DNA from: Deltaproteobacteria bacterium
GTDB taxonomy: Bacteria > Desulfobacterota > Syntrophia > Syntrophales > UBA2210
Direction: 5' to 3'
Length of the DNA: 33,634 nucleotides
Assembly: GCA_019313385.1 (NCBI GenBank)
Contig: JAFDBG010000031.1
Location: forward strand, 1-33,634
The position numbers and the translations under genes were made by a program. Position 1 is the first letter of the stretch; each line of letters opens with the position of its first letter. Below the pieces are notes generated by a model. That model did not search any database. It saw only the letters and a program-made list of their open reading frames with translations, and had not been told where the DNA came from. This document shows positions 7,799-26,390 of the stretch, one piece after another.

Positions 7799-7870
7799 CT
7801 TCGCGGTGTAAGGCATATGAATTGTTGAAAAGCAGGTTATGGGATTTCGAGTGCAGGGGTTGCGTTGAAA

Positions 7871-9829
7871 ATGTCACCAAAAGGCCAAAGATACAGAAGC
7901 TGGGTGGAAATCGATCTGGACAGCTTCAGACATAACTGGAACGAAATAAACAGGTTGGTGGCCTCCAGCGTAAAGGTCCTTCAGGTGGTTAAGGCGGATG
8001 CGTATGGCCATGGGGCGATTGAGATATCAAAGGCCGCTCTGAAAAACGGTGCGTACGCCCTTGGTGTCGCCAATGCCGATGAAGGGGCGCAGCTTCGGGT
8101 CGGCGGGATAGATGCACCCATTATAATATTGAGCCCTTCCACAGTTTATGAGATTGATGAAATCCTCAAATACAATCTTATCCCCTCGGTTTCAGATATC
8201 CATTTTGCGGTTGAACTCAACAGAAAACTGATTGAGAAAGATGTTCAATGTCCCGTTCATATTGAGATTGATACGGGGATGGGCAGGAGTGGGACCATAT
8301 ACAGTGACGCAATAGTCCTGATCAGGAGGATCATTGCTCTCCCCAACATAGTAGTGGAAGGGATATTCTCCCATCTCTCTGTCAGTGAACTGAAAGACGA
8401 TGAATATAATTCTTTCCAGTGGAAACTGTTTGAGGAGATTATAACAGGGTTGGAAAAAGAGGGGATACATATTCCCATAAAACACATATCCAACAGCGGT
8501 GGCGTGCTCAATTTTCCCCGGTTCAATCTGGATATGGTGCGTCCCGGGATTATGACATACGGGGTATATCCATCATCCGATACAGTTCCAAAGGCTGCTC
8601 TTATACCGGTGATGAGTTTCAGGACAAGTGTTGTAATTATCAAGGATTTTCCCGCGGGGTACAGCATAGGTTATGGCAGGTCTCATGTCACAGAAGGCCC
8701 TGCCAGGATAGCGACAATACCGGTTGGATATGGGGACGGGTACGGTTTTATCATGTCGAATCAGGGGGAGGTCCTTATACGGGGTAGAAGGGCACCCATT
8801 GTGGGGCGTATTTCCATGGATATGTGCACTGTGGATGTTACCCATATACCCGAATGCGAAACAGGCGATGAAGTTGTCCTGATGGGGATGCAGGGGGAAG
8901 AGTGCATTTCGGCCGGTGAGATTGCCGGAAAGTCCGGAACGATGGGCTATGAGATTTTGTGCGCGCTGGGCAAGAGAGCGCCTCGCGTATTTGTGAATAA
9001 AGGAGAAACCGATACTGTTGAACCAAAATTAAGAAGGATTTTTATACCGGGTGAGGAAAAATCCATTGCCAGAATTGACAATATGATACGCGGTTGTCTC
9101 CAGGCCAGAACCAGTGACATGGAATTTGCCGACGCGATTTATTATGAGATGTTTGAGACGCTTTTCGGCAGGGAAAACCGTCAGCTGGAATTGAGGATGG
9201 GGTTCAGATATGATATCAGGATAAGCGATTTCCCCGATGGAGAAAAAGGGGCCCGTGGCCCGGATGCGGATTATTTCAGGGTTACAACGCACATTGAGTA
9301 TATAAAAACACTCAGAGACAAGTTTTTCATCATAGGCTGTGCGCGGAATGACGCTCAGCTTTCGGCGCTGTTTGAGGAGGAGAAGTGCGAATACCGGTGG
9401 CTCCTCAACGGTACGGATAATCCCCTCAGAGAAGGTGATTTCAGTGTGGCCCGTGTCAGGATCAATGGCCGGGATGCGCCTGTCATCAGCGCGGAAAATA
9501 CGGACAGGGGGTATGAGGTGCTGTGCGGTGGTGGTGAACTTGAGGAATATCTGAACAAACAGGTAAAAGTGGAGATAGAGATAGAAACAAAGAAGCACAA
9601 AAGCAGTAGGATGTTTTCCGTTTACCTGGTCTATCCTACAAGGGGTATGAATATCTCATTCAATTACGAAAAGACGGAGTTGAAGAACGTGAGAGAGGTA
9701 AGTTTTTTTGCGGGAAGACACCCATATCCGGAAATAAAGATGGAGAATGGAAAATCGATAGAACTGAACATCGGCGAGGATGAGTGGGTATTTCCCAACA
9801 GCGGTGTGACTTTCATCTGGGACCTGTAA
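7871..9829 (+). CDS. alr: Alanine racemase with an unrecognised C-terminal domain
   Basis: PLP-dependent fold-type III racemase giving D-alanine for peptidoglycan, about 652 residues against a usual 360-390. The PLP lysine lies in VVKADAYGHG (Lys41). The barrel continues with HIEIDTGMGRSG and MVRPGIMTYGVYP; SIGYG carries the second-domain catalytic Tyr, followed by ATIPVGYGDGYG and GRISMDMCTVDV. The racemase part ends near residue 380 (ALGKRAPRVFVN). The remaining ~270 residues, including an ELRMGFRYDIRISDF stretch and a beta-rich end (FSVYLVYPTRG, VTFIWDL), match no family I recognise. ATG 7871 is preferred over TTG 7865; the ribosome-binding site is weak. It is followed 37 bases on by a ddl gene, as expected for D-Ala-D-Ala synthesis. 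Confidence 0.88.
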   Translation: MSPKGQRYRSWVEIDLDSFRHNWNEINRLVASSVKVLQVVKADAYGHGAIEISKAALKNGAYALGVANADEGAQLRVGGIDAPIIILSPSTVYEIDEILKYNLIPSVSDIHFAVELNRKLIEKDVQCPVHIEIDTGMGRSGTIYSDAIVLIRRIIALPNIVVEGIFSHLSVSELKDDEYNSFQWKLFEEIITGLEKEGIHIPIKHISNSGGVLNFPRFNLDMVRPGIMTYGVYPSSDTVPKAALIPVMSFRTSVVIIKDFPAGYSIGYGRSHVTEGPARIATIPVGYGDGYGFIMSNQGEVLIRGRRAPIVGRISMDMCTVDVTHIPECETGDEVVLMGMQGEECISAGEIAGKSGTMGYEILCALGKRAPRVFVNKGETDTVEPKLRRIFIPGEEKSIARIDNMIRGCLQARTSDMEFADAIYYEMFETLFGRENRQLELRMGFRYDIRISDFPDGEKGARGPDADYFRVTTHIEYIKTLRDKFFIIGCARNDAQLSALFEEEKCEYRWLLNGTDNPLREGDFSVARVRINGRDAPVISAENTDRGYEVLCGGGELEEYLNKQVKVEIEIETKKHKSSRMFSVYLVYPTRGMNISFNYEKTELKNVREVSFFAGRHPYPEIKMENGKSIELNIGEDEWVFPNSGVTFIWDL

Positions 9830-9866
9830 GGTGTCGGAGTGTTGTAATCAGGGAGAAAGTGTCTTT

Positions 9867-10925
9867 ATGGAGTTGCTGAGAGTTGGGATCATACTAGGCG
9901 GCATGTCTTCCGAAAAAGAGGTTTCGCTGAACAGCGGCAGGAATGTCTATGATAACCTGGATGGTGAAAAATATGAGAGTATCCCCATATTCATGGATAG
10001 TGATGGAAGTCTGTGGATTATACCGTGGCAGCTTGTATCTCAGAACACCACTACCGACATCTCAGAGCATCTTGAAAGGGACGCGAGGCGGATATCTTAC
10101 GAACAGCTGAAGGATGAAATAGATTTTGCCTTCATTTCCCTCCATGGAAAATATGGTGATGACGGGTGCATCCAGGGCCTTCTGGAGATCCTGGGAATTC
10201 CCTACACCGGTCCGGGTGTCCTGGCTTCCGCTCTGGGCATGGATAAGGGCGTGCAGCAGAAGATACTGAGAGCGGCGGGGATCAATGTGCCTGAGAGTAT
10301 GCTGTTCGGGGAAGATGAATGGTTAAGGGATAAAACTCGCGTCAGGGAAAAGATAGCGGAGGCCTTTGATATCCCCTTTGTCGTAAAACCTGTCAGAGAA
10401 GGGTCAAGCATGGGGGTGACCATTGTAAGAAACGAGGAGAGGATTGAGGGCGCGATGGCCGGCGCCTTCAAATGGGACAGGGATGTGCTGGTCGAGGAAT
10501 ATCTCGAAGGCGTTGAATTTTCGTGCATCGTTCTGGAAAGTGAAAATGGGCCGGGTATCCTCGGGGTTACCGAGATTCATCCGCAGAGTGATTTTTACTC
10601 ATACGATGATAAATATATGCCGGGCAGATGCAGCAAATTTACACCCCCCAGGAATATTCCTGTCAATGTTGTTGATCGAATTAAAGCGGATGTTATCAAG
10701 GCGTTTGAAATACTGGGGTTCAGATCGTATGGTCGTATAGACGGATTTGTCCTGGAGGATGGCAGGGTCTTAATTACGGATCCCAATTCGTCTTCAGGAA
10801 TGGCGCCCTCGTCTTTCTTCTTCGAACAGGCCGCGGAAGCCGGCATGCTTCCATCCATGATAATATCCGAGTTGATAGAGATCTCAATCGGAATTCACAG
10901 AGAGAAAAAGGGTCCGCTGCAGTGA
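9867..10925 (+). CDS. ddl: D-alanine--D-alanine ligase, paralogue 1
   Basis: ATP-grasp ligase of 352 residues. It keeps the equivalents of the E. coli DdlB triad: Glu17 (GGMSSEKEVS), Ser180 (KPVREGSSMGV) and Tyr250 (FYSYDDKY). Other signatures are SLHGKYGDDGCIQG at about 91 and ASALGMDK. The metal-binding end is variant: DPNSSSGMAPSS replaces the usual E-x-N-T-x-PGMT, so Glu270 is Asp and Pro/Thr are lost. A D-Ala-D-Ala product is the parsimonious call, but a related dipeptide is possible. ATG 9867 has AGGGAGAAAG upstream; the frame is open from GTG 9831 but that start lacks a site. It is followed at short distance by an outer-membrane protein gene and a second ligase. Confidence 0.85.
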   Translation: MELLRVGIILGGMSSEKEVSLNSGRNVYDNLDGEKYESIPIFMDSDGSLWIIPWQLVSQNTTTDISEHLERDARRISYEQLKDEIDFAFISLHGKYGDDGCIQGLLEILGIPYTGPGVLASALGMDKGVQQKILRAAGINVPESMLFGEDEWLRDKTRVREKIAEAFDIPFVVKPVREGSSMGVTIVRNEERIEGAMAGAFKWDRDVLVEEYLEGVEFSCIVLESENGPGILGVTEIHPQSDFYSYDDKYMPGRCSKFTPPRNIPVNVVDRIKADVIKAFEILGFRSYGRIDGFVLEDGRVLITDPNSSSGMAPSSFFFEQAAEAGMLPSMIISELIEISIGIHREKKGPLQ

Positions 10926-10950: not shown

Positions 10951-11736
10951 ATGATGAAAAAGAGTAGGCGAACGATTGTATGTACTCTGGCGGTTTTTAT
11001 TATTTTATTGATCTGTTCCGCTTCGGTTCAGGCCATTGAATTTGGAGCACGGGGATGCTGGTGGTTGCCTGAGTTTTCCGGGGATTTCAGGGTGGACAAG
11101 AACGGAATCGTGGGGACGAGCATTGATGTGCAGAGTGCTCTTGGCATAGGCGATGAAAGCTATCCCTTTGTCGAAGCCTTTGCGGGAGTTGGGGCGCACC
11201 ATATAAGCCTTACGTATATGGAGGCAGATTATTCGGGGGAAAAGACCCTCGGGGGAAACATCCAGTTTATGGGGCAGACGTACACGGCAGGGACTTTTGT
11301 CCAGTCGGATCTCCAATTCACAATGCTCGATGTGGATTATCAGTACGATATCGTGGATCTGGAAAACATCCTGGCGGGATTATCCGTGGGTATTATCGGG
11401 AAGGTCAAGTATATTGACGGTCAATTCAGTCTGAAAGACACGGCCCTTGGATTAAATGAGGAAGATTCTTTCAAGGCGCCGATTCCCATGCTCGGTCTGG
11501 GGTTACATGTGGGTATCCTTCTCGATATCCTGGAGGCGAGGGTGCGAGGAGCCGGTATCTCTTACTCAGGCAATACCTTTTATGAAGGGCTTGCCGAGGT
11601 TTCCTTCACGCCGTTCCCCTTTCTGGATATTCAGGGGGGATATAGGGTAATGAAACTTTCTGTGGATGATATCAGTGATGTGTATGCGGATATTGAATTT
11701 AGAGGCCCGTATGTAGGCCTTACGATCAGTTTTTAA
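10951..11736 (+). CDS. Outer-membrane beta-barrel-like protein
   Basis: A 261-residue protein with a clear signal peptide (KKSRR, hydrophobic VCTLAVFIILLICSAS, cleavage after VQA at about 29). The mature part has alternating amphipathic strands, Gly- and aromatic-rich, and ends in Phe (PYVGLTISF), the usual barrel-assembly signal. It resembles small eight-stranded-type OMP families without a match I can name. Translation may start at either ATG 10951 or 10954, behind GGAAAGGTGG. It lies 25 bases after ddl paralogue 1 and 18 bases before paralogue 2, so it is embedded in what otherwise is a D-amino-acid ligase module. Its function is unknown; a link to envelope assembly is inferred only from the neighbours. 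Confidence 0.72.
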   Translation: MMKKSRRTIVCTLAVFIILLICSASVQAIEFGARGCWWLPEFSGDFRVDKNGIVGTSIDVQSALGIGDESYPFVEAFAGVGAHHISLTYMEADYSGEKTLGGNIQFMGQTYTAGTFVQSDLQFTMLDVDYQYDIVDLENILAGLSVGIIGKVKYIDGQFSLKDTALGLNEEDSFKAPIPMLGLGLHVGILLDILEARVRGAGISYSGNTFYEGLAEVSFTPFPFLDIQGGYRVMKLSVDDISDVYADIEFRGPYVGLTISF

Positions 11737-11754: not shown

Positions 11755-12819
11755 GTGGAGAAAATAAAGCCCGAAAAAATGAGGGTGGGGATCATCATGG
11801 GGGGGATGTCCTCCGAAAAGGAAGTTTCCCTTGAGAGCGGCAGAAATATATTCAGCAAGGTAGACAGAAAGAAATATCTTCCCATACCTGTATTCATGGA
11901 TAGCAATGGGTTTTTTTGGGAAATACCGGTCAAGATGTTGATGAGAAATTCTACCGGAGATATCGAAAGTGATCTGGAGAATGAGGCGAAAGGGATTCCC
12001 TATGAGAAACTGAAGACTCTTGTGGATATAATATATCCGGGACTCCACGGCAAATACGGCGAAGATGGCTGTATCCAGGGACTTCTGGAGCTGCTGAATG
12101 TTCCCTATGTGGGGTCCGGTGTTCTTGCCTCAGCGCTCGGCATGGATAAATATGCCTCCAGAAAAGTCCTCGCAATGAGCGGGATAGATGTTCCCCGCAC
12201 CGTGGCTGTTTCTGCCGGGCGATGGAAAAGCGGCAGAGAGGATATCCTCAAGGAGATAGAAAACGAGATCGGCCTGCCCTGTGTTGTCAAACCTGCCCGG
12301 GAGGGGTGTAGTACCGCTGTCAGGAAGGTTTTATCGCTGGAGGATGTCTGTGACGGGGTTACAGATGCTCTTGCTTGGGACAATGTGGCGCTGGTTGAAG
12401 AATTTATTGCCGGAATGGAAGTTACATGTGGTGTTATAGGAAATGATTCGCCTGTTGCCCTTGTGCCTTCCGAAACTATACCGACGAAAGGGGTACTTTC
12501 GCTGGAAGACAAATTTCTGTATGGTCAGGGAGAGAACAAGACGCCCGCAAGATTGCCGGAGGATGTCCTGAAGGCGATACAGGATGTAGCTGTAAGGGCA
12601 TTTCTGGCTCTGGGCTTGAAGGCCTACGCGAGAATAGATATGTTTGTGCCCGGTGATGGGCGGATAGTGGTGCTTGAACCGAACAGTCTGCCTGGAATGA
12701 CGCCCTCTACAGTGCTTTTCCACCAGGCGGCGGCTTCCGGTATTACACAGACTGAACTGATCAGCAGGATTATACAATTATCTTTCGAGGCGCACTCGGA
12801 GAAAAAGGGACCGCTGTAG
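11755..12819 (+). CDS. Ddl-like ATP-grasp ligase, paralogue 2, altered active site
   Basis: A 354-residue D-Ala-D-Ala ligase homologue, about as long as paralogue 1 and clearly related (GGMSSEKEVS, LHGKYGEDGCIQG, SGVLASALGMDK). Glu21, Lys179, Lys253, Glu308 and Asn310 (LEPNSLPGMTPS) are kept. Two of the three residues of the DdlB Glu15-Ser150-Tyr216 triad differ: Cys185 (AREGCSTAV) for Ser150, and Phe254 (SLEDKF) for Tyr216. A Tyr216-to-Phe change is known to let DdlB make D-Ala-D-lactate, and Leuconostoc-type D-Ala-D-Lac ligases have Phe there. Product may therefore be D-Ala-D-lactate or another D-Ala-D-X; this is an inference. Start GTG 11755 behind CGGGAG; ATG 11779 is an alternative without a site. 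Operonic with mlaE 20 bases on. Confidence 0.82.
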   Translation: MEKIKPEKMRVGIIMGGMSSEKEVSLESGRNIFSKVDRKKYLPIPVFMDSNGFFWEIPVKMLMRNSTGDIESDLENEAKGIPYEKLKTLVDIIYPGLHGKYGEDGCIQGLLELLNVPYVGSGVLASALGMDKYASRKVLAMSGIDVPRTVAVSAGRWKSGREDILKEIENEIGLPCVVKPAREGCSTAVRKVLSLEDVCDGVTDALAWDNVALVEEFIAGMEVTCGVIGNDSPVALVPSETIPTKGVLSLEDKFLYGQGENKTPARLPEDVLKAIQDVAVRAFLALGLKAYARIDMFVPGDGRIVVLEPNSLPGMTPSTVLFHQAAASGITQTELISRIIQLSFEAHSEKKGPL

Positions 12820-12838: not shown

Positions 12839-13618
12839 ATGAATAAAATTGCCGCGACAGTTGATAATTTTGGAAGGGCCATCCTGGAGAATATCGAGGA
12901 GATGGGGAGGATTCTTCTCCTCTTCCTTTCCGTTCTGATGTGGATGGTCAGGCCCCCGCTGAAACTGCGCCTGATCTTCAAGCAGATGGAATTCGTCGGC
13001 GTCAAGTCCATCTTTGTCGTCGTTCTCACCGGCACGTTTACTGGCATGGTCATGGCTTTGCAGGGTTATTACGGTTTCAAGATGTTCAATGCCGAGAGTC
13101 TTGTCGGTTCCACAGTCGCGCTGGGAATGACCAGGGAACTTGGCCCTGTTCTCACCGCTTTGATGGTAACCGCCAGGGCGGGTTCGGCCATGGCGGCGGA
13201 GCTGGGAACGATGCGCGTGACTGAACAGATAGACGCCCTGTATGTCATGGCCGCGAATCCCGTTAAACATCTTATTGTCCCAAGAGTAATCGCGGGAGTG
13301 CTGATGCTTCCCCTCCTCACCGTTGTGTCTGACTTTATGGGAATCCTGGGGGGATATTTTGTGGGGGTGCCTGTTCTGGGCATTAATTCAGGCGCTTTTA
13401 TAAGTAATATCACTAAGCTTGTAGACCTGGGTGATATTTACCATGGTCTGACCAAGGCGGCATTTTTTGGGCTCATTCTGTCTCTGGTGGGATGTCACAA
13501 AGGATTTATAGCTACAGGAGGAGCCGAGGGCGTGGGGAGGGCTACCACGGAGGCGGTGGTTCTTGCATCCGTGTCGATCCTGATAAGTGACTATTTTCTT
13601 ACGGCGATCATGTTTTAG
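12839..13618 (+). CDS. mlaE: MlaE-type ABC transporter permease
   Basis: Inner-membrane permease of 259 residues (MlaE/YrbE, PF02405) of the Mla/MCE phospholipid transport system. There are about five hydrophobic segments; the conserved coupling region GMTRELGPVLTALMVTARAGSAMAAELGTM lies at about 98-127 (read in parts: TRELGP, RAGSAMAAELG, TEQIDAL). NPVKHLIVPRVIAG follows. It starts 20 bases after the second ligase with no strong ribosome-binding site, which suggests translational coupling. It ends 4 bases before mlaF. Family and complex membership are clear; cargo direction is not. Confidence 0.93.
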   Translation: MNKIAATVDNFGRAILENIEEMGRILLLFLSVLMWMVRPPLKLRLIFKQMEFVGVKSIFVVVLTGTFTGMVMALQGYYGFKMFNAESLVGSTVALGMTRELGPVLTALMVTARAGSAMAAELGTMRVTEQIDALYVMAANPVKHLIVPRVIAGVLMLPLLTVVSDFMGILGGYFVGVPVLGINSGAFISNITKLVDLGDIYHGLTKAAFFGLILSLVGCHKGFIATGGAEGVGRATTEAVVLASVSILISDYFLTAIMF

Positions 13619-13621
13619 ATT

Positions 13622-14368
13622 ATGATTAAACTTGTTGGTATTCATAAGTCGTTTGGGCGGCAAAAAGTTCTGGATGGTCTGAGCCTTGATATCGAAGACG
13701 GTAAAACTACCGTTATTATCGGTGGCAGTGGTGGGGGGAAGAGTGTTCTCCTCAAGCATATTATCGGGCTTTTAAAACCCGACAGTGGGCAGGTGCTTAT
13801 TGATGGTGTTGACATTGCATCGCTTAATGACAGAGATCTGAATGAGATACGGAAGAAATTCGGCATGCTCTTCCAGGAAGCGGCGCTTTTTGATTCCATG
13901 AACGTAATGGAGAATGTCGCCTTTCCTTTGAGAGAGCATACTGGAAAGAAAGAGAAGGAAATAAGGGAGATAGTAAAAGAAAAACTGAAAGCGGTCGGTC
14001 TTACCGGCGTTGAAGATAAAATGCCTTCAGAATTGAGCGGGGGTATGAGAAAGAGGGTAGGGCTTGCCAGGGCAATTGCCATGCAGCCGCAAATCGTTCT
14101 GTTTGATGAACCCACTACCGGTCTGGACCCCGTGATGACGGAGGCGATAAACGAACTTATTGTTGAAACGCAGAGAAATTTTGACCTGACCTGTGTGGTT
14201 ATAAGCCATGATGTTCAGTCAATTTTTACGGTGGGCCACAAGATAGCCATGCTCTATAAGGGTAAAATCGTAGAATATGGGACTCCCGAAGAAATAAAAA
14301 GCTCCTCTGATCCTGTACTCAGGCAATTTCTTTCAGGGAGTCTTGAAGGCCCGATAAGTGTGATTTAA
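13622..14368 (+). CDS. mlaF: MlaF-type ABC transporter ATPase
   Basis: ABC ATPase of 248 residues. Walker A GGSGGGKSVLLK is at about 38-49, a Q-loop at MLFQEAALFDSM, the signature LSGGMRKRVGLARA at about 139, Walker B IVLFDEPTTGLDP at about 159, and the H-loop in VVISHD at about 195. The FQEAALFDS segment after the Q-loop is typical of the MlaF/Ttg2A group. It energises the MlaE permease and pairs with the MCE protein encoded next. ATG at 13622, two bases beyond the mlaE stop region; no independent ribosome-binding site stands out. Confidence 0.94.
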   Translation: MIKLVGIHKSFGRQKVLDGLSLDIEDGKTTVIIGGSGGGKSVLLKHIIGLLKPDSGQVLIDGVDIASLNDRDLNEIRKKFGMLFQEAALFDSMNVMENVAFPLREHTGKKEKEIREIVKEKLKAVGLTGVEDKMPSELSGGMRKRVGLARAIAMQPQIVLFDEPTTGLDPVMTEAINELIVETQRNFDLTCVVISHDVQSIFTVGHKIAMLYKGKIVEYGTPEEIKSSSDPVLRQFLSGSLEGPISVI

Positions 14369-14432
14369 GGGAAATGACAAAGCGGTGGAAATTCAAAAGT
14401 CAAGATCCCAATGACTAAGAATGGAGAAGAAT

Positions 14433-15866
14433 ATGTCTTCAATCAGCACGGAAGCAAAGGTAGGTCTATTCGTTCTGGCAGCATTGATTATATTGGCATA
14501 CATGTCCTTCAGGGTAGGAGAATACGGGTTCGGTCTCAAGAAGGGATACCTGGTGAACGTGGTATTTGATAACGCTACGGGTCTTTCGAAAGATGCCTCC
14601 GTGCAGATAGCAGGCGTGGAGGTGGGGAGGGTCGAGGAGATATCCCTCAAAGACGGCAAGGCCATGATTGTGTTGAGGATACTTCCATCAGTAGAGCTGG
14701 AAAAGGATGTTGCGGCCAAGATAAAGTCATATGGCATATTAGGTGATAAATATGTGGATATTGTGCCCGGAACAAAGGGCGAGACATATATCGCGGCAGG
14801 GGGGAATATTACCAGAACAGGACAGCAGGCCGATATCGACAAACTGCTGAGTGAACTCGGAACTATAGCTGGCGATGTTATGAAGGTGACGTCCTCGCTG
14901 AAAAATACCCTGGGGGGCGAGGAAGGAGAAGCAAATCTCAAGGCAATAATAGAGAATACCAGGTCCATTACTGAAAATCTGAACAGGGTCGTAACACAGA
15001 ACGACGAAAAGCTCAATCTGATGATAACCAATCTCGGCGAGGCATCGGCTGAGATGCGCAGGACCTTTGCGACGCTGAACAGCATCGTGGAAAAGATCGA
15101 CAGCGGAGAGGGTACTATCGGTCAGCTGGTTGAAAACAAGGACGCCTTTGACAACCTCAATCAGACCCTTGCATCACTCAAAAGCATCACCGAAAAGATT
15201 AACCGGGGGGAAGGCTCCATCGGGAAGCTGGTCAATGATGAAGATACCGTCGATAATCTGAACGCGAGCCTGAAAAGTCTTGGGAAAAGCATGGATGGGA
15301 TACAACGGTACGTGTCAAAGTCAGAGCAGTTTAAGACCTTCCTCGGCTACCGGGGGGAATACCTGTTTGACGGCGGTGACGGAAAGGGATACTTTGATCT
15401 GACGATACGTCCCAGGGAAGACACCTTTTACGTCCTTGGTCTGGTCACCGATCCCAAGGGCAGACTGACTATGACCGACAGTACTGATATGTCAACAGGA
15501 GTGACAACACGAACCGAGACCTGGGATAAGGACGGTCTGCTTTTTACCGCGCAGATCGGCAAGAGGTTCAAGGATATAGCCCTCAGGGGAGGTGTTTTTG
15601 AATCGACGGGCGGCGTCGGTATAGACTACTTTGCCTTTAACGACAATTTGCAGTTTACCTTCGAGGCCTTTGACTTTGACAGCGACCGTAACGCGCACCT
15701 CAAGACATATGCCGAATACCGGCTTCTGAAGCATATATACCTGTCGGCCGGATGGGATGATTTTATCAGCAACCAGGGTGGTGATTCCCCCTTCATAGGA
15801 TTCTCAATAAAATTCGAGGACGAAGATCTGAAATACCTCCTCGGGAGTGTCCCGATACCGAAATAA
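14433..15866 (+). CDS. mlaD: MlaD-type MCE protein with long C-terminal beta-rich domain
   Basis: A 477-residue MCE protein, far longer than E. coli MlaD (about 180). An N-terminal anchor (VGLFVLAALIILAYMSF) is followed by one MCE domain at about 32-125, with FDNATGLSKDASVQIAGVEV and YGILGDKYVDIVPG. A helical/coiled region at about 130-300 holds internal repeats (TLNSIVEKIDSGEGTIGQLV; TLASLKSITEKINRGEGSIG; then SLKSLGKSMDGI). The last ~170 residues alternate polar and apolar strands with many aromatics (YRGEYLFDGG, FIGFSIKFEDED), like an outer-membrane barrel. ATG 14433 has GGAGAAG at 14423-14429; the ATG at 14421 overlaps that site. An MlaD of this design, reported in Veillonella parvula, is proposed to span the envelope by itself. 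Confidence 0.88.
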   Translation: MSSISTEAKVGLFVLAALIILAYMSFRVGEYGFGLKKGYLVNVVFDNATGLSKDASVQIAGVEVGRVEEISLKDGKAMIVLRILPSVELEKDVAAKIKSYGILGDKYVDIVPGTKGETYIAAGGNITRTGQQADIDKLLSELGTIAGDVMKVTSSLKNTLGGEEGEANLKAIIENTRSITENLNRVVTQNDEKLNLMITNLGEASAEMRRTFATLNSIVEKIDSGEGTIGQLVENKDAFDNLNQTLASLKSITEKINRGEGSIGKLVNDEDTVDNLNASLKSLGKSMDGIQRYVSKSEQFKTFLGYRGEYLFDGGDGKGYFDLTIRPREDTFYVLGLVTDPKGRLTMTDSTDMSTGVTTRTETWDKDGLLFTAQIGKRFKDIALRGGVFESTGGVGIDYFAFNDNLQFTFEAFDFDSDRNAHLKTYAEYRLLKHIYLSAGWDDFISNQGGDSPFIGFSIKFEDEDLKYLLGSVPIPK

Positions 15867-16885: not shown

Positions 16886-17410
16886 ATGTATTTCAATCCA
16901 TCAGAAATATCTCTTATAGGGAAAACGTTTCGCCATGCCGGGGATCTGGCTGAAGGATATTTTCATCTTGGCAGTGGTGGATTAAAGGATCACAGGTACG
17001 AGGTGGAAACTCTTGCCCGTCTTAGTGATCATGAGGTGGACAGCAAGGCTTTCGCGCATCTGTGCAGGTATCTTTATCAAAAAGAAGGCGACGCCGATCA
17101 TCCTGACAACTTCTATTTCTTCAAGATCTGTCTTCAGGATGACCGGATCCTTGAAGCTGTGAAAAGGAGCAGGCCGTTCGTTAAACTGGAGCCTCTTATG
17201 CTGTACATAGCCGCGCATGAGCTTGTTCATGTTATCCGGTTTAACGGCAGAGAGATCGAATTTGACGCGCCATTGGAAGAAAAGATTGCCGAGGAAGAGA
17301 AGGTACATTCGATTACCAGGAGCATGCTCCAGCCGGTGGCTGACACAGACATTAATCTTGTGCTTGATTGTTTCAGCAGCCGCTATAATATAGGGGACAT
17401 ATTTAACTAA
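16886..17410 (+). CDS. Putative zinc metalloprotease-like protein with HExxH
   Basis: A 174-residue soluble protein I do not recognise as a named family. It contains YIAAHELVHVIRF (HELVH at residues 111-115), a zincin-type HExxH preceded by a hydrophobic helix. A cluster of acidic and His residues follows 18-26 residues later (EEKIAEEEKVHSI; Glu131-138, His141), any of which could supply a third zinc ligand. No signal peptide is seen, so it is probably cytoplasmic. The start has CGGGAGTGG upstream. It is transcribed from its own promoter and its stop abuts a MITE-like repeat. The zinc-site call is from the motif alone; a non-catalytic function is possible. Confidence 0.68.
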   Translation: MYFNPSEISLIGKTFRHAGDLAEGYFHLGSGGLKDHRYEVETLARLSDHEVDSKAFAHLCRYLYQKEGDADHPDNFYFFKICLQDDRILEAVKRSRPFVKLEPLMLYIAAHELVHVIRFNGREIEFDAPLEEKIAEEEKVHSITRSMLQPVADTDINLVLDCFSSRYNIGDIFN

Positions 17411-17984: not shown

Positions 17985-19565
17985 TTAGATCCTGGTTACT
18001 CTGAAGACTTCTTCGATGGTGGTGATCCCTTCCAGAACCTTGTTCACGCCGTCCTGGATCAGGGTGACCATTCCAAGTTTGACCGCTTCCTTTCCTATCT
18101 GATTTGTATCCGATGTCTTTAAGATCAGCTTTTTCAGGTGGTCGTCAAGGATCATCATTTCAAAGATGGCCGCTCTTCCCCGATAGCCGGTATTCATGCA
18201 GGCAGGGCATCCTTTTCTCCTGTAAATTTTACAGCCATCCGGGATGCCTTTGCTCAGGCCGATTTTTGCCAGTGATTTGTCATCCGGGATATATTCCTCC
18301 CTGCATTCAGGGCAGAGGACCCTTATCAGCCTCTGGGCTATGATGGCTATAACGGAAGACGTTATCAGAAACGGTTCTATTCCCATATCTATGAGACGTG
18401 TGACGGCGCTGGCCGCGTCGTTGGTGTGCAGGGTGGAGAATACGAGATGCCCTGTCAACGAGGACTGGATGGCGATTTCAGCGGTTTCCATATCCCGGAT
18501 CTCTCCCACCAGGATTACATCAGGGTCCTGCCTTACAATCGACCGAAGCCCCTTGGCAAAGGTAAGATCAATTTTTGGATTTACCTGAATTTGTCCTATG
18601 CCTTCGATCTGATACTCTATGGGGTCTTCTATTGTGATGATATTGATTTCCGGATTGTTTATGGTGGAGAGGGCGGCATAGAGTGTTGTCGTCTTGCCGC
18701 TTCCCGTCGGGCCTGTCACCAGAACAATTCCGTATGGTGACCTGATAAGATCGTCAAGGAGTTTGAAACGTTCCCTGTCAATTCCCAGATCAATCAGTTT
18801 GAAGGACGTATCTGTTTTATCAAGAAGTCTCAGGACAACTCTTTCACCAAAGGCAATGGGAATTACCGATACGCGAATATCGATATTTTTGTCCCCGATT
18901 TTTATATTGATTCTTCCATCCTGTGGGAGCCTCTTTTCGGCAATATTGAGCTTTGCCATGATCTTTATACGTGAAGCAAGGGAAGACTGGATCTTTTTCG
19001 GCAGGGTCAGGGCATTATACAGCACCCCGTCAACCCGGTATCTGATGGTGAGTTTGTGCTGATAGGGTTCTATGTGGATGTCGCTGGCTCGGTCCTTGAC
19101 AGCACGGGACAATATGAGATTGACCAGTTTTATTACCGGCGCGTCACTGGTATCGTCGAGCAGATCGGCTGTTTCCTCGATTTCGGAAATAATGCTGTCA
19201 GGAGATTCTTCGGTCATATCCTGAACGAACTCCTCGGCGGAACCGCTGCCCTGATCATAAGCCAGATTTATGGCGGAAAGGATGGCCGAACTGGTGGAAA
19301 GGATGATTCTGGTATCTTCCCAGTCAAGAATGCGGCGAAGGTCATCAATGGGTGGAAAATCGGAAGGATCGTTCACCGCTATGGATGTGCCATCAGCAGT
19401 TTCAATAGGTACCAATTTGTGCTTTTTAAGGTATTGAATCGGGATTTTCTTTGTAAAATCAAACCTGATATCCTCCGCGGGAAGTTCGGGCCAGAAGGGG
19501 ACATCTAATTTGACGCTCATCTCCCGGAGGAGATCTGTCTCGGTAGTATTGGTTGGTTTGGTCAA
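17985..19565 (-). CDS. gspE: Type II secretion ATPase GspE
   Basis: Cytoplasmic hexameric ATPase of 526 residues powering T2SS pseudopilus assembly. The N-terminal N1E/N2E region (about 1-150) is followed by the N-terminal RecA-like domain with SRAVKDRASDIHIEP. Walker A GPTGSGKTTTLYAAL is at about 285, the Asp box at ITIEDPIEYQIEGIGQ, Walker B in DPDVILVGEIRDMETAE, and the His box in LTGHLVFSTLHTNDA. The zinc-binding C-M pair CPEC...CPAC (about 425 and 458) is intact. It is the last gene of the minus-strand operon. The start is TTG 19565 behind AGGAT; an internal ATG (MSVKLDV) at 19520 is possible. All catalytic motifs look functional even though gspD upstream is broken. Confidence 0.95.
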   Translation of the reverse strand: MTKPTNTTETDLLREMSVKLDVPFWPELPAEDIRFDFTKKIPIQYLKKHKLVPIETADGTSIAVNDPSDFPPIDDLRRILDWEDTRIILSTSSAILSAINLAYDQGSGSAEEFVQDMTEESPDSIISEIEETADLLDDTSDAPVIKLVNLILSRAVKDRASDIHIEPYQHKLTIRYRVDGVLYNALTLPKKIQSSLASRIKIMAKLNIAEKRLPQDGRINIKIGDKNIDIRVSVIPIAFGERVVLRLLDKTDTSFKLIDLGIDRERFKLLDDLIRSPYGIVLVTGPTGSGKTTTLYAALSTINNPEINIITIEDPIEYQIEGIGQIQVNPKIDLTFAKGLRSIVRQDPDVILVGEIRDMETAEIAIQSSLTGHLVFSTLHTNDAASAVTRLIDMGIEPFLITSSVIAIIAQRLIRVLCPECREEYIPDDKSLAKIGLSKGIPDGCKIYRRKGCPACMNTGYRGRAAIFEMMILDDHLKKLILKTSDTNQIGKEAVKLGMVTLIQDGVNKVLEGITTIEEVFRVTRI

Positions 19566-19579
19566 GGCGCTATCCTGAT

Positions 19580-19684
19580 TTACGGTTCACGGTTTAACGG
19601 TTTACAGTTTACGGTTCTGCTTTCCGACTTCTCTTTCTTCCCGACCTCCGACTTTCCTTACTCCTTACTCCTTACTCCTTACGC
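19580..19684 (-). repeat. Heptamer tandem repeats between gspD and gspE
   Basis: At 19580-19615 five units with a 7-bp period: TTACGGT, TCACGGT, TTAACGGT (one extra base), TTACAGT, TTACGGT. At 19658-19684 another series, TTACTCC three times then TTACGCT. Read on the minus strand the latter is TAAGGAG repeated, and the first TAA is the gspD stop (19674-19672). CGACCTCCGAC between the blocks keeps a similar purine/pyrimidine style. The repeats carry both a stop and an AAGGAG ribosome-binding core, but lie about 100 bases from the gspE start. Confidence 0.8.
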
Positions 19685-21294
19685 TTTCTTTTGTAAGTCT
19701 TGATCACGCCCTCTTCGACCTTATTGATATGTTCCTGCTTCTCTTCATATATCGATTTAGCCTCAGTCGGGTTTTCTACGATGCGGGGGGTGATGAATAT
19801 AAAGAGATTCCGTTTTTCACGAGTCTCACTCTTGTATTTGAAGAGCCAGCCAAGACCCGGGATGTCTCCAAGGCAGGGGGTCTTGTACACGGTATTGGTA
19901 ATATCATCTCCTATGAGACCGCCGATCACTATCGTGTTTTTGTCCTTTATCGTTACTGTTGTCTTGGTTGTGCGTTTCAGTGTGGTGGGTCGTACAGTTT
20001 GCTGGCCTGCTTCAGTGACAAGTTTAGTGACTTCCTGAAATATATTGAGGCGGACAAAACGCTCCAGGTTTATCTGCGGTGTAATCCTCAGGGTTACACC
20101 CACATCCTTGTATTCGAAGCTGCTGTAATCTGTAGTGGAAGTTACCGAAGACGATTCTTGTCTGGTCTGATAGGGTACGTTTTCTCCCACATATATTTCC
20201 GCCTCTTCATTGTCGAGTGTTAGTATCTGGGGCGTGGAGAGTATATGGACATCCTGATCCTTCTGGTAGGCTTGCAGGACAGCGCCCAAGTTGGGGAATA
20301 CCGCTCCGCCTATATTAATTGCCTCGCCGAACACTCCGAGGGAAAATCCGGGTGGGTAAGAAATAACTCCGGTTGTTGCATTCGGAGTCGGAATTATACC
20401 GGCTCCGGTAAATCCACCCCCATAAACCTTGCTGCCCCCACTGTTGAATTTTTCACCACCTACCCATTCCGCGCCGATTTTAAACCCTTTATCCACATTG
20501 ACTTCCATGATGAGGGCTTCGATATATACCATTGGGCGGGGAACATCGAGTTTCTTGATCACGCCCTCAAGTACATTATAATCATCTCTCTCGGCCGTGA
20601 TGATCAGGCTGTTTGTGGCCTTGTCCGGCACTATGCCTATATTTTTTGAGAGCAGGGGAGTTTTCCCTTTTTGGGTGTCTTTCGCGTTCTTTGATGGAAT
20701 ATTCATTAAGACCTTTGACAGGTCTTCGGCATCCGCGTTCTCAAGGCGGTAAACACGCAGCCTTTCTTCTCCCTTGGGGACGTCCTTATCCAGAAGTTTT
20801 ATGAGTTGCCGTATGCGCGTGGTGTCATTTTCGCTGGCCAGGGTTATTATGATGTTTGTGCGTTCGTCAGCTACAATCTTTATGGTTGACGCGATCGTAC
20901 CTTTCTTTTGCCTGGCTGTCTTCTGAAATATCTGATTCAGCGATTTGGCAATTTCCGTGGAAGAAGCGCGCTCCAGGGGTATGACGGAAATCTGCTCCTC
21001 TATTCCCTCAATGTCCAGGGCACTTACTATTTTGAGAAGCCGGTTTATGTTGGAGAGCAGATCGGTTACTATAAGCATTCCCGTTGGTGGATAGGACAGG
21101 ATAACGCTTGATTTGGATATCAGCGGCGCTAAAACTTTTTTCATTTCATTAGGGTTTGCGTAATTCAGGGAAATAATCTGAGTTACAACCTTGTCTTCCG
21201 GGGTTATAGCTCCACTCTTCAGACGGGTTTCAATGTTTTTTGTCTTCGCGTCTTTTGAGGGCACTATTTTTATAATATCCCCGGCCGGCACCAC
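19672..21294 (-). pseudogene. gspD: GspD secretin, C-terminal fragment (frameshifted)
   Basis: The larger part of the outer-membrane secretin (540 codons). It begins VVPAGDIIKIVPSKDAKTKN in the N1 domain and continues through N2/N3 repeats (MLIVTDLLSNINRLLKIV, TNIIITLASENDTTRIRQL). The secretin core has VPYQTRQESS, GVTLRITPQIN and the TIKDKNTIVIGGLIGDD to ITPRIVENP end. The N-terminal portion is in another frame (21270-21662). Compared with E. coli GspD, about 20 residues of N1 corresponding to NEEQYYQFFLSVLDVYGF are missing at the junction. A deletion of a length not divisible by three, between ISPKK and VVPAG, explains both the loss and the frame change. GTG 21294 without a ribosome-binding site is not a likely real start. 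Confidence 0.85.
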
Positions 21295-21662
21295 TTTTTC
21301 GGAGAGATTATAGTAACCTTTCCCTTAACCCTATTATCGATCACAAAATTGCTGCCAGTCAATTCGCTGATAAATTTGATGAATACCCTTATGTCAACAT
21401 CGTCAAAATCTATGGTGACGTATCTGGCCTCTTCTTTGCGTGGCTCGGATTTTTTCTCTGCCGGCACTTTCTTTTTTTCGGTTTTCCCGGCAGGAAGAAT
21501 TTCCGGGGACTTTTTTCCAGGGCTGACAGTTTCTTTGCCGGTAGTAACGAGCTTTTCATCACCCGTTATTCGCGCACCCATTATATTCCCGGGTGCCGTG
21601 AATGACGCGACGCACAGAATGATGACAGATAACAATAAGTATTTTCTTGCTGATTTTCTCAT
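21270..21662 (-). pseudogene. gspD: GspD secretin, N-terminal fragment (frameshifted)
   Basis: A 130-codon frame with a signal peptide (KYLLLSVIILCVASFTA), a charged Lys/Glu/Pro-rich linker (about 55-80), and the N0 domain of GspD (VTIDFDDVDIRVFIKFISEL, then TGSNFVIDNRVKGKVTIISP). After ISPKK the sequence goes out of frame and ends at WCRPGIL. The C-terminal fragment begins in the overlapping bases, where GTGGTGCCG would encode VVPAG. Upstream and downstream portions are otherwise well preserved, suggesting recent loss, an assembly defect, or (less likely) recoding. ATG 21662 is the natural start. Confidence 0.85.
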
Positions 21663-21694
21663 GCCGAAAGTATCTCGTTTCCTCTGACTGATAT

Positions 21695-21776
21695 AACGGT
21701 TTACGGTTTACAGTTCACAGTTTTTACAATCCCTGTCTTTCCAACCGTGAACCGGTAACTGTAAACAGTTACTGTC
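21695..21776. repeat. Inverted-facing heptamer repeats between the TPR gene and gspD
   Basis: The first block (21695-21721) has units AACGGT, TTACGGT, TTACAGT, TCACAGT. The second block (21743-21776) has the opposite orientation: AACCGTG, AACCGGT, AACTGTA, AACAGTT, ACTGTC. The two can pair imperfectly into a hairpin. The stop of the TPR gene (TGA, 21777-21775) touches the end of the second block. Confidence 0.75.
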
Positions 21777-22542
21777 ACTCAAAAACTTTTCTAAACTCTG
21801 CCGATTCGCAAACATTCTTCATGTCCTTATCATTTTTTACCCAGTTTTTCACACTATTATTTATAGAGGCAGCCATTTTCAGATAATGGAGGCTCTCTGA
21901 AATATTTCCCGACAGAGAGTAGAGACATGCCAGGTTGTAGTATGGATCAATATAATCAGCCTTCAGAGCCATGGCTTTTATGAACATGTCCGCAGCCTCT
22001 TTGTTTTTCCTTCGGCTCATGTAAATGACCCCGAGATTGTTCAGGGCGAAGACATGTTCCGGCTCGATACTCAAGACTTTTTTGTACCCCTCACCGGCCT
22101 TATCCATGTCGCCTTTCTGCTGGTAGCCCAGGGCCTTTCGATAAAGCGTGTCCACGCCGGACATCGTATCGGCGCCAATTTTCACGTTGCCGTCATTTCC
22201 GGCCATGGGGTAGGGGAGGGCTTTCTTCTCGCCGCTGTCGTTAAGTGGAACTGCCGCTGTGCCTGTGATGATCGCTTTTTCCTGTTGTGATACCGGCGCC
22301 TTCTCCACCGCGACATTTCCGTGAGGGATTACACCCTCTCTCCCGTCACGTGCGTTGTTCTCAAACACCAGAAGGGCGATCACGGAAAGAGATATCAATG
22401 CGACAGCCGCAACGATTACCAGTCCGATCTTGCGGCCGGTATTATTTTTGTGGGTCGCCACAGGCACTATACGACTGTAACGCTGGTAGATATTATCCTT
22501 TTCCCTCTGAGCCTTTTTAAGGGCTTTATCTATATGACTCAT
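21775..22542 (-). CDS. TPR membrane protein, GspB-like, of the T2SS operon
   Basis: A 255-residue protein whose start (MSHIDKALKKAQREKDN) resembles the cytoplasmic N-terminus of GspB-like proteins. One transmembrane helix (IGLVIVAAVALISLSVIALL, about 39-58) precedes a low-complexity periplasmic linker and about three TPR motifs from about 130 to 240 (ALGYQQKGDMDKAGEGYKKV, ALNNLGVIYMSRRKNKEAAD, DPYYNLACLYSLSGNISES). In related operons such a protein sits between the ExeA-type ATPase and GspD and may help insert or localise the secretin through peptidoglycan. The start matches AAGTGGGATAG upstream. The stop lies at the edge of a heptamer repeat. Confidence 0.78.
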   Translation of the reverse strand: MSHIDKALKKAQREKDNIYQRYSRIVPVATHKNNTGRKIGLVIVAAVALISLSVIALLVFENNARDGREGVIPHGNVAVEKAPVSQQEKAIITGTAAVPLNDSGEKKALPYPMAGNDGNVKIGADTMSGVDTLYRKALGYQQKGDMDKAGEGYKKVLSIEPEHVFALNNLGVIYMSRRKNKEAADMFIKAMALKADYIDPYYNLACLYSLSGNISESLHYLKMAASINNSVKNWVKNDKDMKNVCESAEFRKVFE

Positions 22543-22551
22543 CTATCCCAC

Positions 22552-23508
22552 TTAAAAAAATGCATTTGAAAAAAATTCAAAAACCGCTTCTCTGTCCACA
22601 GTAACTGCCAGCAACAGGAGAATAAGTATAATCAGTGTAGAGAGAAGCAACAGACGTTCTCTTCTCCTCCGAGACATTGTTTTGTCTGTCAGGTAGCCGC
22701 TGCCGATATCGGATACCGTTTCCCTCACAAGATTTCTGCTGATAACGTTGCAATCCCCGCTGTACGCGATGAGCAATGCCCTGTCACAAATGGCATTTAT
22801 GCGCCGGGGGATACCTTTGGAATAGCTGTGGATCTTTCTGAATGCCTGGCTGGAAAACCGTGGGAATCCATTGTCTGCGCCCGCTACCGCCAATCTGTGC
22901 CTTATATAGTCTTCTTCCTGGCGACGATTAAACGGGGTCAAGTTGTACCTCACTGTAATCCTTTCATTGAGTTGTTTCAGAGATGGTGATGTCAGGAGTT
23001 CCTCCAATTCCGGTTGTCCAATGAGTATTATCTGCAACAGTTTTTCCCTCTCGGTTTCAAGGTTGGAAAGCATCCGGATCTGTTCCAGCACGCCACGGGA
23101 AAGGTTTTGGGCCTCATCAATAAGCAAAACCGAATTTCTACCCGAAGAGAAGTTTTTCAGAAGAAATGCATTCAAGGCGCTGATATGGCGCTTTCTGGTG
23201 GGTCTTCCCCTTCCTGACTTAATGCCAAACTCCTGATTTATAGTTGCCAGAAGCTCCATCTCTGAGAGAGAGGGATTGAATATCAGGGCGCTGTCAATCG
23301 ATTGATCCAGGACGGAAAGCAGTTTTCTGCAGATAGTCGTCTTGCCGGTTCCGATTCCTCCCGTAATCACCATGAAGCCTTTTTTTTCATTTATGCCGTA
23401 GATCAGATGGTTTAACGCTTCACTGTGCTGCGGACTGAGAAAGAGATACCTGGGATCCGGAGTCAAATTAAATGGATTTTCTTTCAAGCCGAAATATGAT
23501 GTATACAT
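22552..23508 (-). CDS. gspA: ExeA/GspA-type AAA ATPase
   Basis: A 318-residue ATPase starting MYTSYFGLKENPFNLTPDP, the standard ExeA N-terminus. Walker A GGIGTGKTTICRKLL is at about 51, Walker B VLLIDEAQNLS at about 122, and sensor region IILIGQPELEELL follows. A C-terminal transmembrane helix (LLLLSTLIILILLLLAV, about 285-305) anchors it. ExeA with ExeB uses ATP to place the secretin across peptidoglycan. The usual C-terminal peptidoglycan-binding domain seen in long ExeA is absent, as in the short deltaproteobacterial form. No clear ribosome-binding site; the gene follows gspC across a heptamer repeat. Confidence 0.88.
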   Translation of the reverse strand: MYTSYFGLKENPFNLTPDPRYLFLSPQHSEALNHLIYGINEKKGFMVITGGIGTGKTTICRKLLSVLDQSIDSALIFNPSLSEMELLATINQEFGIKSGRGRPTRKRHISALNAFLLKNFSSGRNSVLLIDEAQNLSRGVLEQIRMLSNLETEREKLLQIILIGQPELEELLTSPSLKQLNERITVRYNLTPFNRRQEEDYIRHRLAVAGADNGFPRFSSQAFRKIHSYSKGIPRRINAICDRALLIAYSGDCNVISRNLVRETVSDIGSGYLTDKTMSRRRRERLLLLSTLIILILLLLAVTVDREAVFEFFSNAFF

Positions 23509-23513
23509 AGGTA

Positions 23514-23586
23514 CAGTGACCAGTGACCAGTGACCAGTTAGCGTAGACCAGACCGTAAACTGTGAACCGTGAACTGTAAACTGATA
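23514..23586. repeat. Heptamer tandem repeats between gspC and gspA
   Basis: CAGTGAC occurs three times in exact tandem (23514-23534), followed by degenerate units CAGTTAG and CGTAGAC. Then come ACCGTAA, ACTGTGA, ACCGTGA, ACTGTAA and ACTGATA (23552-23586). The period is strictly 7 in each block. The repeat ends right at the gspC stop (23590-23588). Confidence 0.85.
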
Positions 23587-23587
23587 G

Positions 23588-24415
23588 TTACTGGAAAATA
23601 TATTCCAGATTCTGTTCTTTGCCTTTCCTTTTGATATTAAGGTTTATCGAGGAGCCGGATTTCAGACTGTCATAGAGCTTCAGCATCTCGTCCGGGCTCT
23701 TAATCGGCTGGTCGTTAACACTCTGTATGATATCCCCGTTTTGCATGCCCATTTTCTGAAAGATGCTTCCGGATTTTATTCTGCTTATTATGAAGCCGTC
23801 CGATTTTCCAGCGGAGAAATATGGTCGAATCCTGGCCTGGGTAAGAATCTTGCCCATGTCTTTCATGGCTTCGTTTATCTCGGCTTTATTCACGATTACA
23901 GAACTTACGGCGCCGGAAGTTGGCTTCCCCTCGTCTTCCCCGTCTTTGCCGGGCTTATCCATTGCCAATATCTCATCCCTGCCGTCCACGCGCAGTACAA
24001 CCATGCCGCGCATTATCCTGGCGACGGTGGCGGACGCAACGGTATCTCCAGTCTTGAAAAGCCCCTGTTTCTTTTTGTCCTTTTCCTCGATAACGGCGCA
24101 ATCGAAATTTCCTGTTCCGGAAACAGTGCCCAAAAGGGCCAGATCCAATTTTGTGGACTCCAACTCATTAACATCGATATATCTTTCTCCCGCGGCTTTA
24201 TCGATTGAGCCGAACAGGTTTCTTTTAGAAATCACGCTGTAGGAATCCAGAGGTTGTTTTTTGACAACCTGAATATTCGCTTTTTCAGTAACTGTTGTTC
24301 CGGTTTTGACGCTGGCAAGTTTTGCGTTCACCACCCTGTAAAAGATATCCACGGACAGATATGCCAGAACGGTAATTGCTATAAGGATGACTATTGTACG
24401 ATATTTTGTTGTCAT
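23588..24415 (-). CDS. gspC: GspC inner-membrane linker with PDZ domain
   Basis: A 275-residue protein with one N-terminal membrane helix (TIVILIAITVLAYLSVDIFY, about 8-27). The homology-region domain (YSVISKRNLFGS, then LALLGTVSGTGNFDCAVIEE and VLRVDGRDEILAM) spans about 55-160, and a C-terminal PDZ domain (GFIISRIKSGSIFQKMGMQN, GDIIQSVNDQPI) spans about 200-275. GspC connects the inner-membrane platform with the secretin and may select cargo. Family architecture is complete, with no visible damage. ATG 24415 has only weak ribosome-binding complementarity. It is separated from gspN by a four-helix-bundle gene flanked by repeats. Confidence 0.9.
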   Translation of the reverse strand: MTTKYRTIVILIAITVLAYLSVDIFYRVVNAKLASVKTGTTVTEKANIQVVKKQPLDSYSVISKRNLFGSIDKAAGERYIDVNELESTKLDLALLGTVSGTGNFDCAVIEEKDKKKQGLFKTGDTVASATVARIMRGMVVLRVDGRDEILAMDKPGKDGEDEGKPTSGAVSSVIVNKAEINEAMKDMGKILTQARIRPYFSAGKSDGFIISRIKSGSIFQKMGMQNGDIIQSVNDQPIKSPDEMLKLYDSLKSGSSINLNIKRKGKEQNLEYIFQ

Positions 24416-24421
24416 AATCTC

Positions 24422-24456
24422 AACTGTTTACAGTTGTCGGTTCACAGTTCACGGCT
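24422..24456. repeat. Heptamer repeats downstream of the four-helix-bundle gene
   Basis: Five units of period 7: AACTGTT, TACAGTT, GTCGGTT, CACAGTT, CACGGCT. The stop codon of the neighbouring minus-strand gene (TGA at 24451-24449) is inside this block. Confidence 0.78.
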
Positions 24457-24799
24457 TTTTCAATGAACTATGCAACGACTGAAGCATTTTGGATATTGAT
24501 TTCAATTCTTCAATTAATTCTTTCGCATCTGAATCACAAAATATATTAACTTCTCGTGAAATATAAATTTGTGTTCTCAGTTCCGCAGCCGATCCCTGCA
24601 CAATATTTATAAACCGTTGAAAATCCGGAATACTCTTTCTTTCACTTCCCTCAGCAATATTCGACGGAATAGATACAGATGAGCGCAGCATCTGATCCTT
24701 TATTCCATAATCACGGCAATCGCTTAATAATTCATAAAGACGTACCGATAATCTGCAAGATTTTTTCCAAACTTCTAAATCTTCAAAAGAAGATCCCAC
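24449..24799 (-). CDS. Four-helix-bundle protein (23S rRNA intervening-sequence family)
   Basis: A 116-residue all-helical protein with FEDLEVWKKSCRL near the start, RSSVSIPSNIAEGSERKSIP in the middle, and RFINIVQGSAAELRTQIYIS. These motifs define the four-helix-bundle/S23 family (PF05635, TIGR02436), first found as open frames within 23S rRNA intervening sequences and related to the Avd accessory protein of diversity-generating retroelements. Nothing else of a retroelement is present. It is not part of known T2SS operons, sits between gspN and gspC, and is bracketed by heptamer repeats in opposite orientation, suggesting an insertion. Start is GTG 24799 with AGAGGGAAG upstream; the stop falls inside the repeat. 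Confidence 0.88.
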   Translation of the reverse strand: MGSSFEDLEVWKKSCRLSVRLYELLSDCRDYGIKDQMLRSSVSIPSNIAEGSERKSIPDFQRFINIVQGSAAELRTQIYISREVNIFCDSDAKELIEELKSISKMLQSLHSSLKKP

Positions 24800-24826
24800 A
24801 GCTTCCCTCTACCTTCTGTTTTTTTA

Positions 24827-24861
24827 ACCGTGAACCGATAACTGTAAACCGTAAACCGTTA
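24827..24861. repeat. Heptamer repeats upstream of the four-helix-bundle gene
   Basis: Units ACCGTGA, ACCGATA, ACTGTAA, ACCGTAA, ACCGTTA (24827-24861), opposite in orientation to the block at 24422-24456, so the inserted gene is flanked by inverted repeat arrays. The gspN stop (TAA, 24861-24859) is inside the last unit. Confidence 0.82.
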
Positions 24862-25686: not shown

Positions 25687-25690
25687 AACG

Positions 25691-25790
25691 GTTTACAGTT
25701 ACCAGTTTACAGTTACCGGTTTACAGTTTCGAGAACCTCTTACCTTCCAATCTTCTATTCTTCTCATCTTCTTACCTTCTAATCTTTCAG
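25691..25790. repeat. Heptamer repeats between gspM and gspN
   Basis: GTTTACA and GTTACC(A/G) alternate over 25691-25725 (five units) with a sixth, GTTTCGA, to 25732. A pyrimidine-rich degenerate series of 7-8-base units follows (25740-25785; for example TCTTCTA, TTCTTCT, CATCTTC). The gspM stop (TAG, 25781-25779) lies in this second series. Confidence 0.8.
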
Positions 25791-26330: not shown

Positions 26331-26336
26331 TGTTTT

Positions 26337-26390
26337 TTATCTCATCTTCTAAACTTCTAATCTTCTTATTTTCTTATCTTTTATCCCCAT
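26337..26390. repeat. Degenerate 7-8-bp repeats at the gspL 3' end
   Basis: Pyrimidine-rich units (TCTTCTA, AACTTCTA, ATCTTCT, TATTTTCT, TATCTTT). The array contains the gspL stop (TAG, 26351-26349) and encodes the last residues of GspL (DKKIRRLEV), so the repeat has either grown into the coding end or replaced the original one. Confidence 0.6.

Follow-up and report, generated by a model that had tools for sequence, protein, structure and literature searches.

A tandem pair of divergent D-alanine ligase genes takes the place of the canonical Ddl in many Syntrophales genomes

D-alanine ligase (Ddl), an essential enzyme and antibiotic target (D-cycloserine), is classically described as a single-chain or homodimeric enzyme. 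Escherichia coli carries two isozymes in one cell, DdlA and DdlB, each of which keeps all canonical residues (S150, Y216, E270, T278 and S281; residue columns are numbered here by E. coli DdlB) and whose genes are not in tandem. The two genes that we describe, ddl1 and ddl2, resemble the E. coli enzymes in fold, family, most of the substrate, ATP and metal columns and peptidoglycan context, but each departs from them, and at different sites. The D-Ala-D-Lac ligase LmDdl2 of Leuconostoc mesenteroides (PDB 1ehi), a structural match (TMt 0.81), likewise has Phe at the Tyr216 column. However, it is a single enzyme in a Gram-positive bacterium, whereas Ddl2 is further changed relative to canonical Ddl at positions 150, 152, 153, 210, 212 and 281, and the sequence match of Ddl2 to LmDdl2 is no better than that to other Ddls. 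The E. coli DdlB Y216F protein (PDB 1iow), also among the structural matches, contains the same Tyr-to-Phe change, but this was engineered into an otherwise canonical enzyme that has none of the further substitutions of Ddl2. Finally, the D-Ala-D-Lac ligase VanA belongs to the same family (~32% identity) but has E215 and V216 and a different omega-loop, and its vanH/vanX neighbours are absent here. No report of a tandem or heterodimeric Ddl was found in the literature searched.

The window that we analysed, a stretch of 33,634 nucleotides from a Syntrophales genome (assembly GCA_019313385.1, contig JAFDBG010000031.1), contains both genes (Table 1) in the order alr-ddl1-(omp)-ddl2-mlaE-mlaF-mlaD, which recurs across the Syntrophales. 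A search of the genome revealed no Ddl beyond these two. On balance, and by a little, we lean towards ddl1 and ddl2 jointly encoding a two-component D-alanine ligase, with one half from each gene, that fulfils the role of a single canonical enzyme.

Active-site residues of the two paralogues

The ddl2 open reading frame is intact and matches the Pfam families PF01820 and PF07478. It scores above the cut-off in the NCBIfam Ddl subfamily models NF002528 (290.6 bits, cut-off 262) and TIGR01205 (252.9 bits, cut-off 245.65) and falls below the equivalog cut-offs for both D-alanine--D-alanine ligase (best 242.5 bits, cut-off 449) and D_ala_D_lac (186 bits, cut-off 550). Alignment with DdlB and DdlA (read from MG1655) and VanA agrees with the sequence-only reading of this locus, which had placed Phe254 at the Tyr216 column and Cys185 at the Ser150 column and had assigned Tyr and Ser to paralogue 1 at these columns. 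We compared 66 distinct Ddl2 orthologues, from 60 related genomes and the GTDB contig collection, with 42 other Ddls (30 single-copy Ddls from the phylum and 12 from other bacteria). Since Phe216 occurs in all the orthologues and Cys150 in all but two, against Tyr and Ser throughout the comparison set, these substitutions are a hallmark of the clade and reflect neither chance nor sequencing error; the two exceptions, both with Ser150, are from Patescibacteria. Values of dN/dS against close relatives (~0.09–0.15 for both ddl1 and ddl2), together with the unbroken frame, support an intact gene under purifying selection. The further statement that the other ATP-grasp residues are intact stands in part: the catalytic columns E15, H63, K97, K144, K215, R255, D257, E270 and N272 are kept in 66/66 orthologues, but, besides S150C and Y216F, Ddl2 carries V152T, G153A, Y210L, Y212L and S281T.

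Table 1. Features of the alr-ddl-mla region, with positions in the window
Feature	Position	Strand	Remarks
alr, alanine racemase	7865..9829	+	TIGR00492, 347 bits, above cut-off
Alr C-terminal extension, ~270 aa	9011-9829	+	no Pfam family match
ddl1 (paralogue 1)	9867..10925	+	Ddl homologue keeping Y216, S150, G153, S281; altered at 68, 270, 275, 278
Ddl1 E68D	10158-10160	+	Glu invariant in 42 comparison Ddls
Ddl1 E270D	10779-10781	+	metal-binding column; Glu invariant in 42 comparison Ddls
Ddl1 P275S	10794-10796	+	Pro invariant in 42 comparison Ddls
Ddl1 T278A	10803-10805	+	Thr invariant in 42 comparison Ddls
omp, outer-membrane beta-barrel gene, TIGR04219-like	10951..11736	+	87.5 bits, below cut-off 105
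ddl2 (paralogue 2)	11755..12819	+	GTG start, 354 aa; Ddl homologue; F216 and C150, plus other G-loop and omega-loop changes
Ddl2 Cys185 = DdlB Ser150 column	12307..12309 (TGT)	+	alignment; Cys 64/66 orthologues, Ser 42/42 canonical
Ddl2 Thr187 and Ala188 = DdlB V152 and G153 columns	12313..12318	+	glycine-rich ATP loop; Thr 66/66, Ala 61/66; canonical Gly153 41/42
Ddl2 omega-loop codons	12496..12504	+	Leu248 (12496-12498) = Y210 column, Leu 66/66; Leu250 (12502-12504) = Y212 column, Leu 64/66
Ddl2 Phe254 = DdlB Tyr216 column	12514..12516 (TTT)	+	alignment; Phe 66/66 orthologues, Tyr 42/42 canonical
Ddl2 Thr319 = DdlB S281 column	12709..12711	+	Thr 66/66 orthologues
mlaE, mlaF, mlaD-like genes (lipid transport)	12839..15866	+	neighbours of the ddl genes

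Paralogue 1, too, departs from invariant residues of the catalytic site. Its frame is open from a GTG at 9831, and the ATG at 9867 precedes a conserved ELLRVGII motif. E68D, E270D, P275S and T278A are each fixed or nearly so across the Syntrophales; at the position equivalent to E270, BpDdl has Glu275, a residue reported in 98–100% of sequences (PMC6899670). To judge from the residues involved, E270D and T278A are conservative, and the activity of Ddl1 may survive them. The departures of the two proteins thus lie at separate sites, namely the ATP glycine loop, the omega-loop and S281 in Ddl2, and the loop around position 68 and the 270–278 metal/oxyanion segment in Ddl1. Both end in a C-terminal tail of the KKGPL/KRGPL type, seen in none of the canonical tails inspected.

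Distribution, sharing and replacement of the pair

Across 297 sampled genomes of the phylum, those outside the Syntrophales generally have one canonical Ddl. Two Ddl matches occur only in the Syntrophales genomes with the pair, one impure bin has three, and all others have one or none. We surveyed 108 Syntrophales genomes with a completeness of 90% or more, 100 of which could be scored by their PF07478 match. Pair-type matches (138–175 bits) characterize 61 of them and a canonical match (218–259 bits) the other 39, with no overlap in score between the two classes, and none of the 100 combines the pair with a canonical Ddl. The remaining 8 of the 108 have neither type, the gene being possibly truncated, divergent or not assembled. 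Where a pair genome has one listed match, the locus breaks at a contig end (G032, G050 and G670) or both genes were found on checking. In some genomes the two ddl genes are on separate contigs or widely spaced, as in G020 (379 kb), where the 836-aa open frame around ddl1, which overlaps alr, was not accepted as a fusion.

In the Alr tree, used as a proxy for the species tree, genomes with a canonical Ddl are nested among those with the pair, implying five changes (an approximate count), of which at least three are forced by well-supported branches. The canonical Ddls of these replaced Syntrophales genomes fall in three separate places of the Ddl tree; the replacements were therefore not one event, and the canonical Ddls involved are of at least three kinds. 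Their loci differ in what was left behind. In G036, a canonical ddl directly follows alr, at the spot that the pair occupies in its congener G052. G037 and G053 retain an intact alr-omp-mlaEFD from which both ddl genes are absent. G043 preserves only the final 53 codons of ddl2, between omp and mlaE, and carries its canonical ddl on another contig. Loss of only one of the two genes was seen in none of the loci examined of the losing lineages. The single Ddls of G027, G043, G036 and G025 are closely similar, with a long stem common to three Syntrophales families, and their sequences suggest that this replacement gene spread horizontally.

The pair also occurs in two genomes of Patescibacteria, where ddl1 and ddl2 are 9–11 bp apart in mur/glmS clusters (L098, 3663-5851; L099, 4789-7134) and no other Ddl match was found. 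By the gene names that we read by eye from the sequence, one pair follows murC-murB-murA-like genes and the other follows murE-glmS-yvcK-like genes and precedes mraY- and ftsW-like ones; in L099, both open reading frames share one frame with a single TAA between them. No further pair was detected at the thresholds used in 44 plus 232 more genomes from the classes of G350 and G349. Each of the two pairs has one member in each paralogue clade of the Ddl tree, which implies that the duplication happened before the pair came to be shared. Patescibacterial Ddl1 has L63, H272 and I276 and has thus lost H63, N272 and G276, whereas the corresponding Ddl2 keeps H63, E270 and N272 but has A276. The single Ddls of related genomes retain H63, N272 and G276 in 19 of 19 cases and are canonical at the columns checked save for one D257E. 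The loss of these residues from Ddl1 makes Ddl2, the Phe216 chain, the likelier catalytic member.

One two-component ligase or separate enzymes

Any account of function has to accommodate a gene pair with fixed residues in each member, mutually exclusive with the canonical Ddl, lost jointly and jointly present in two phyla. The account that we favour is that the two proteins probably act together rather than make two products. After a duplication that would have preceded any sharing of the pair by Syntrophales and the two Patescibacteria, ddl1 and ddl2 would have specialized at different active-site positions and would since have been retained, moved and lost together, standing in for the single canonical Ddl. 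Their joint task would be the terminal dipeptide of peptidoglycan precursors, with D-Ala-D-Ala as the favoured product because it is ordinary Ddls that replace the pair. Ddl2, with F216 and the H63, E68, E270 and N272 columns kept, would be the main catalytic chain, and Ddl1, with its canonical ATP loop and omega-loop and altered metal/oxyanion site, its partner. A stricter version, to which we give somewhat less than an even chance, is that the ligase is obligately heteromeric, neither chain being sufficient alone, that it is the only D-Ala-D-X ligase of most of the order and of some Patescibacteria, and that Phe216 and Cys150 are part of a redistributed active site. If the pair does work as one enzyme, the cell-wall dipeptide of most of one order would be the product of a Ddl split over two genes, a clear case of subfunctionalization of an essential enzyme for which the natural replacements by canonical Ddl would be built-in controls.

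The likeliest physical form would be a heterodimer through the usual Ddl dimer surface. Ddl enzymes dimerise via alpha3-5 and alpha8, with long C-terminal helices extending to the partner subunit (PMC6899670). In a relative of the same genus, ddl1 and ddl2 lie in the same reading frame, separated by one TAG. An AlphaFold2 model of this fused protein, with the TAG read through and a fused-only alignment containing no single chains, has a pTM of 0.77, a disordered linker and the two halves placed relative to each other; its structural matches are single Ddl chains, LmDdl2 and DdlB Y216F among them. Since the known homodimer packing may be adopted by any pair of Ddl chains, the model is compatible with a heterodimer but equally with homodimers. 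Distance correlations revealed no special rate coupling between the two genes (partial correlation 0.42 for ddl1-ddl2 given alr, against 0.75 for ddl2-alr given ddl1).

Alternatively, although we consider it unlikely, Ddl1 might make D-Ala-D-Ala while Ddl2, as an independent ligase, joins D-Ala to a different second substrate (such as D-lactate or D-serine) through Phe216 and Cys150. The precedent invoked for this by the sequence-only reading is sound: E. coli DdlB with substitutions at Tyr216 and Ser150 is reported to gain weak D-Ala-D-Lac activity (PMC7691350), and leuconostocs have Phe261 at the Tyr216 column (PMC4895993). F216 and T281 are moreover fixed in 66/66 Ddl2 orthologues, which keep K215, R255, D257, E270 and N272. 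The picture of a normal paralogue 1 accompanied by an extra enzyme with another product nevertheless fits the genomes poorly. Canonical Ddls of three kinds replaced both genes at once and ddl2 never stands beside one; such joint replacement, with no examined locus losing a single gene, is hard to square with a normal Ddl1 and an additional Ddl2. Ddl1 itself is not a normal Ddl and, in Patescibacteria, has lost H63, N272 and G276. The vanH/vanX partners of the van resistance operon were not found in the genome of the window, weak evidence given that the bin is 93.6% complete: the genome has no match to a VanX-type M15 peptidase, and its only VanH match is a 382-aa 2-hydroxyacid dehydrogenase, hydroxypyruvate-reductase-like, with 31–43% identity over fragments. 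These are also organisms with an outer membrane, presumably under no obvious vancomycin pressure. D-Ala-D-lactate as a separate product is consequently less likely, judging by gene content and residues, and a single Tyr-to-Phe change appears poor ground for reading a D-Ala-D-Lac, drug-resistance-like product.

Even less probable, in our estimation, is that Ddl1 alone catalyses the ligation and Ddl2 is a non-catalytic regulator, as its altered omega-loop and G-loop (S150C, G153A) could indicate. Y210, lost from Ddl2, corresponds to Tyr215 of BpDdl, which helps to close the omega-loop on ATP (PMC6899670). However, all charged catalytic columns checked are kept in Ddl2, and it is Ddl1, not Ddl2, that loses H63, N272 and G276 in Patescibacteria. 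That the two are ordinary active isozymes like DdlA and DdlB, diverging by neutral drift, is the most improbable reading, since their membership of the Ddl family and largely kept substrate lysines and metal ligands are outweighed by diagnostic residues fixed within each clade across the order and by the loss of both genes together, never of one, in the genomes checked.

Neighbouring genes

The C-terminal extension of Alr occurs in 57 of 60 Syntrophales relatives, in genomes with the pair and with a canonical Ddl alike, which rules it out as a pair-specific partner. AlphaFold gives it a beta-rich model (pTM 0.73) whose matches are weak and to M1 aminopeptidases alone (TMq ~0.36). The omp gene stands between ddl1 and ddl2 in some relatives and is absent there in others, including some of the same genus. 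The mla genes lie 3' of ddl2 in most pair loci and stay behind alr-omp after loss of the pair. A conserved 174-aa protein with no Pfam match (16886-17410) stays with the locus in most relatives, downstream of either ddl2 or the mla genes. Further along, on the reverse strand (17985-27905), the window carries a type II secretion/type IV pilus-like cluster with a T2SSE ATPase, a secretin and T2SSC, in which one 518-aa protein has both PilM and PilN domains.
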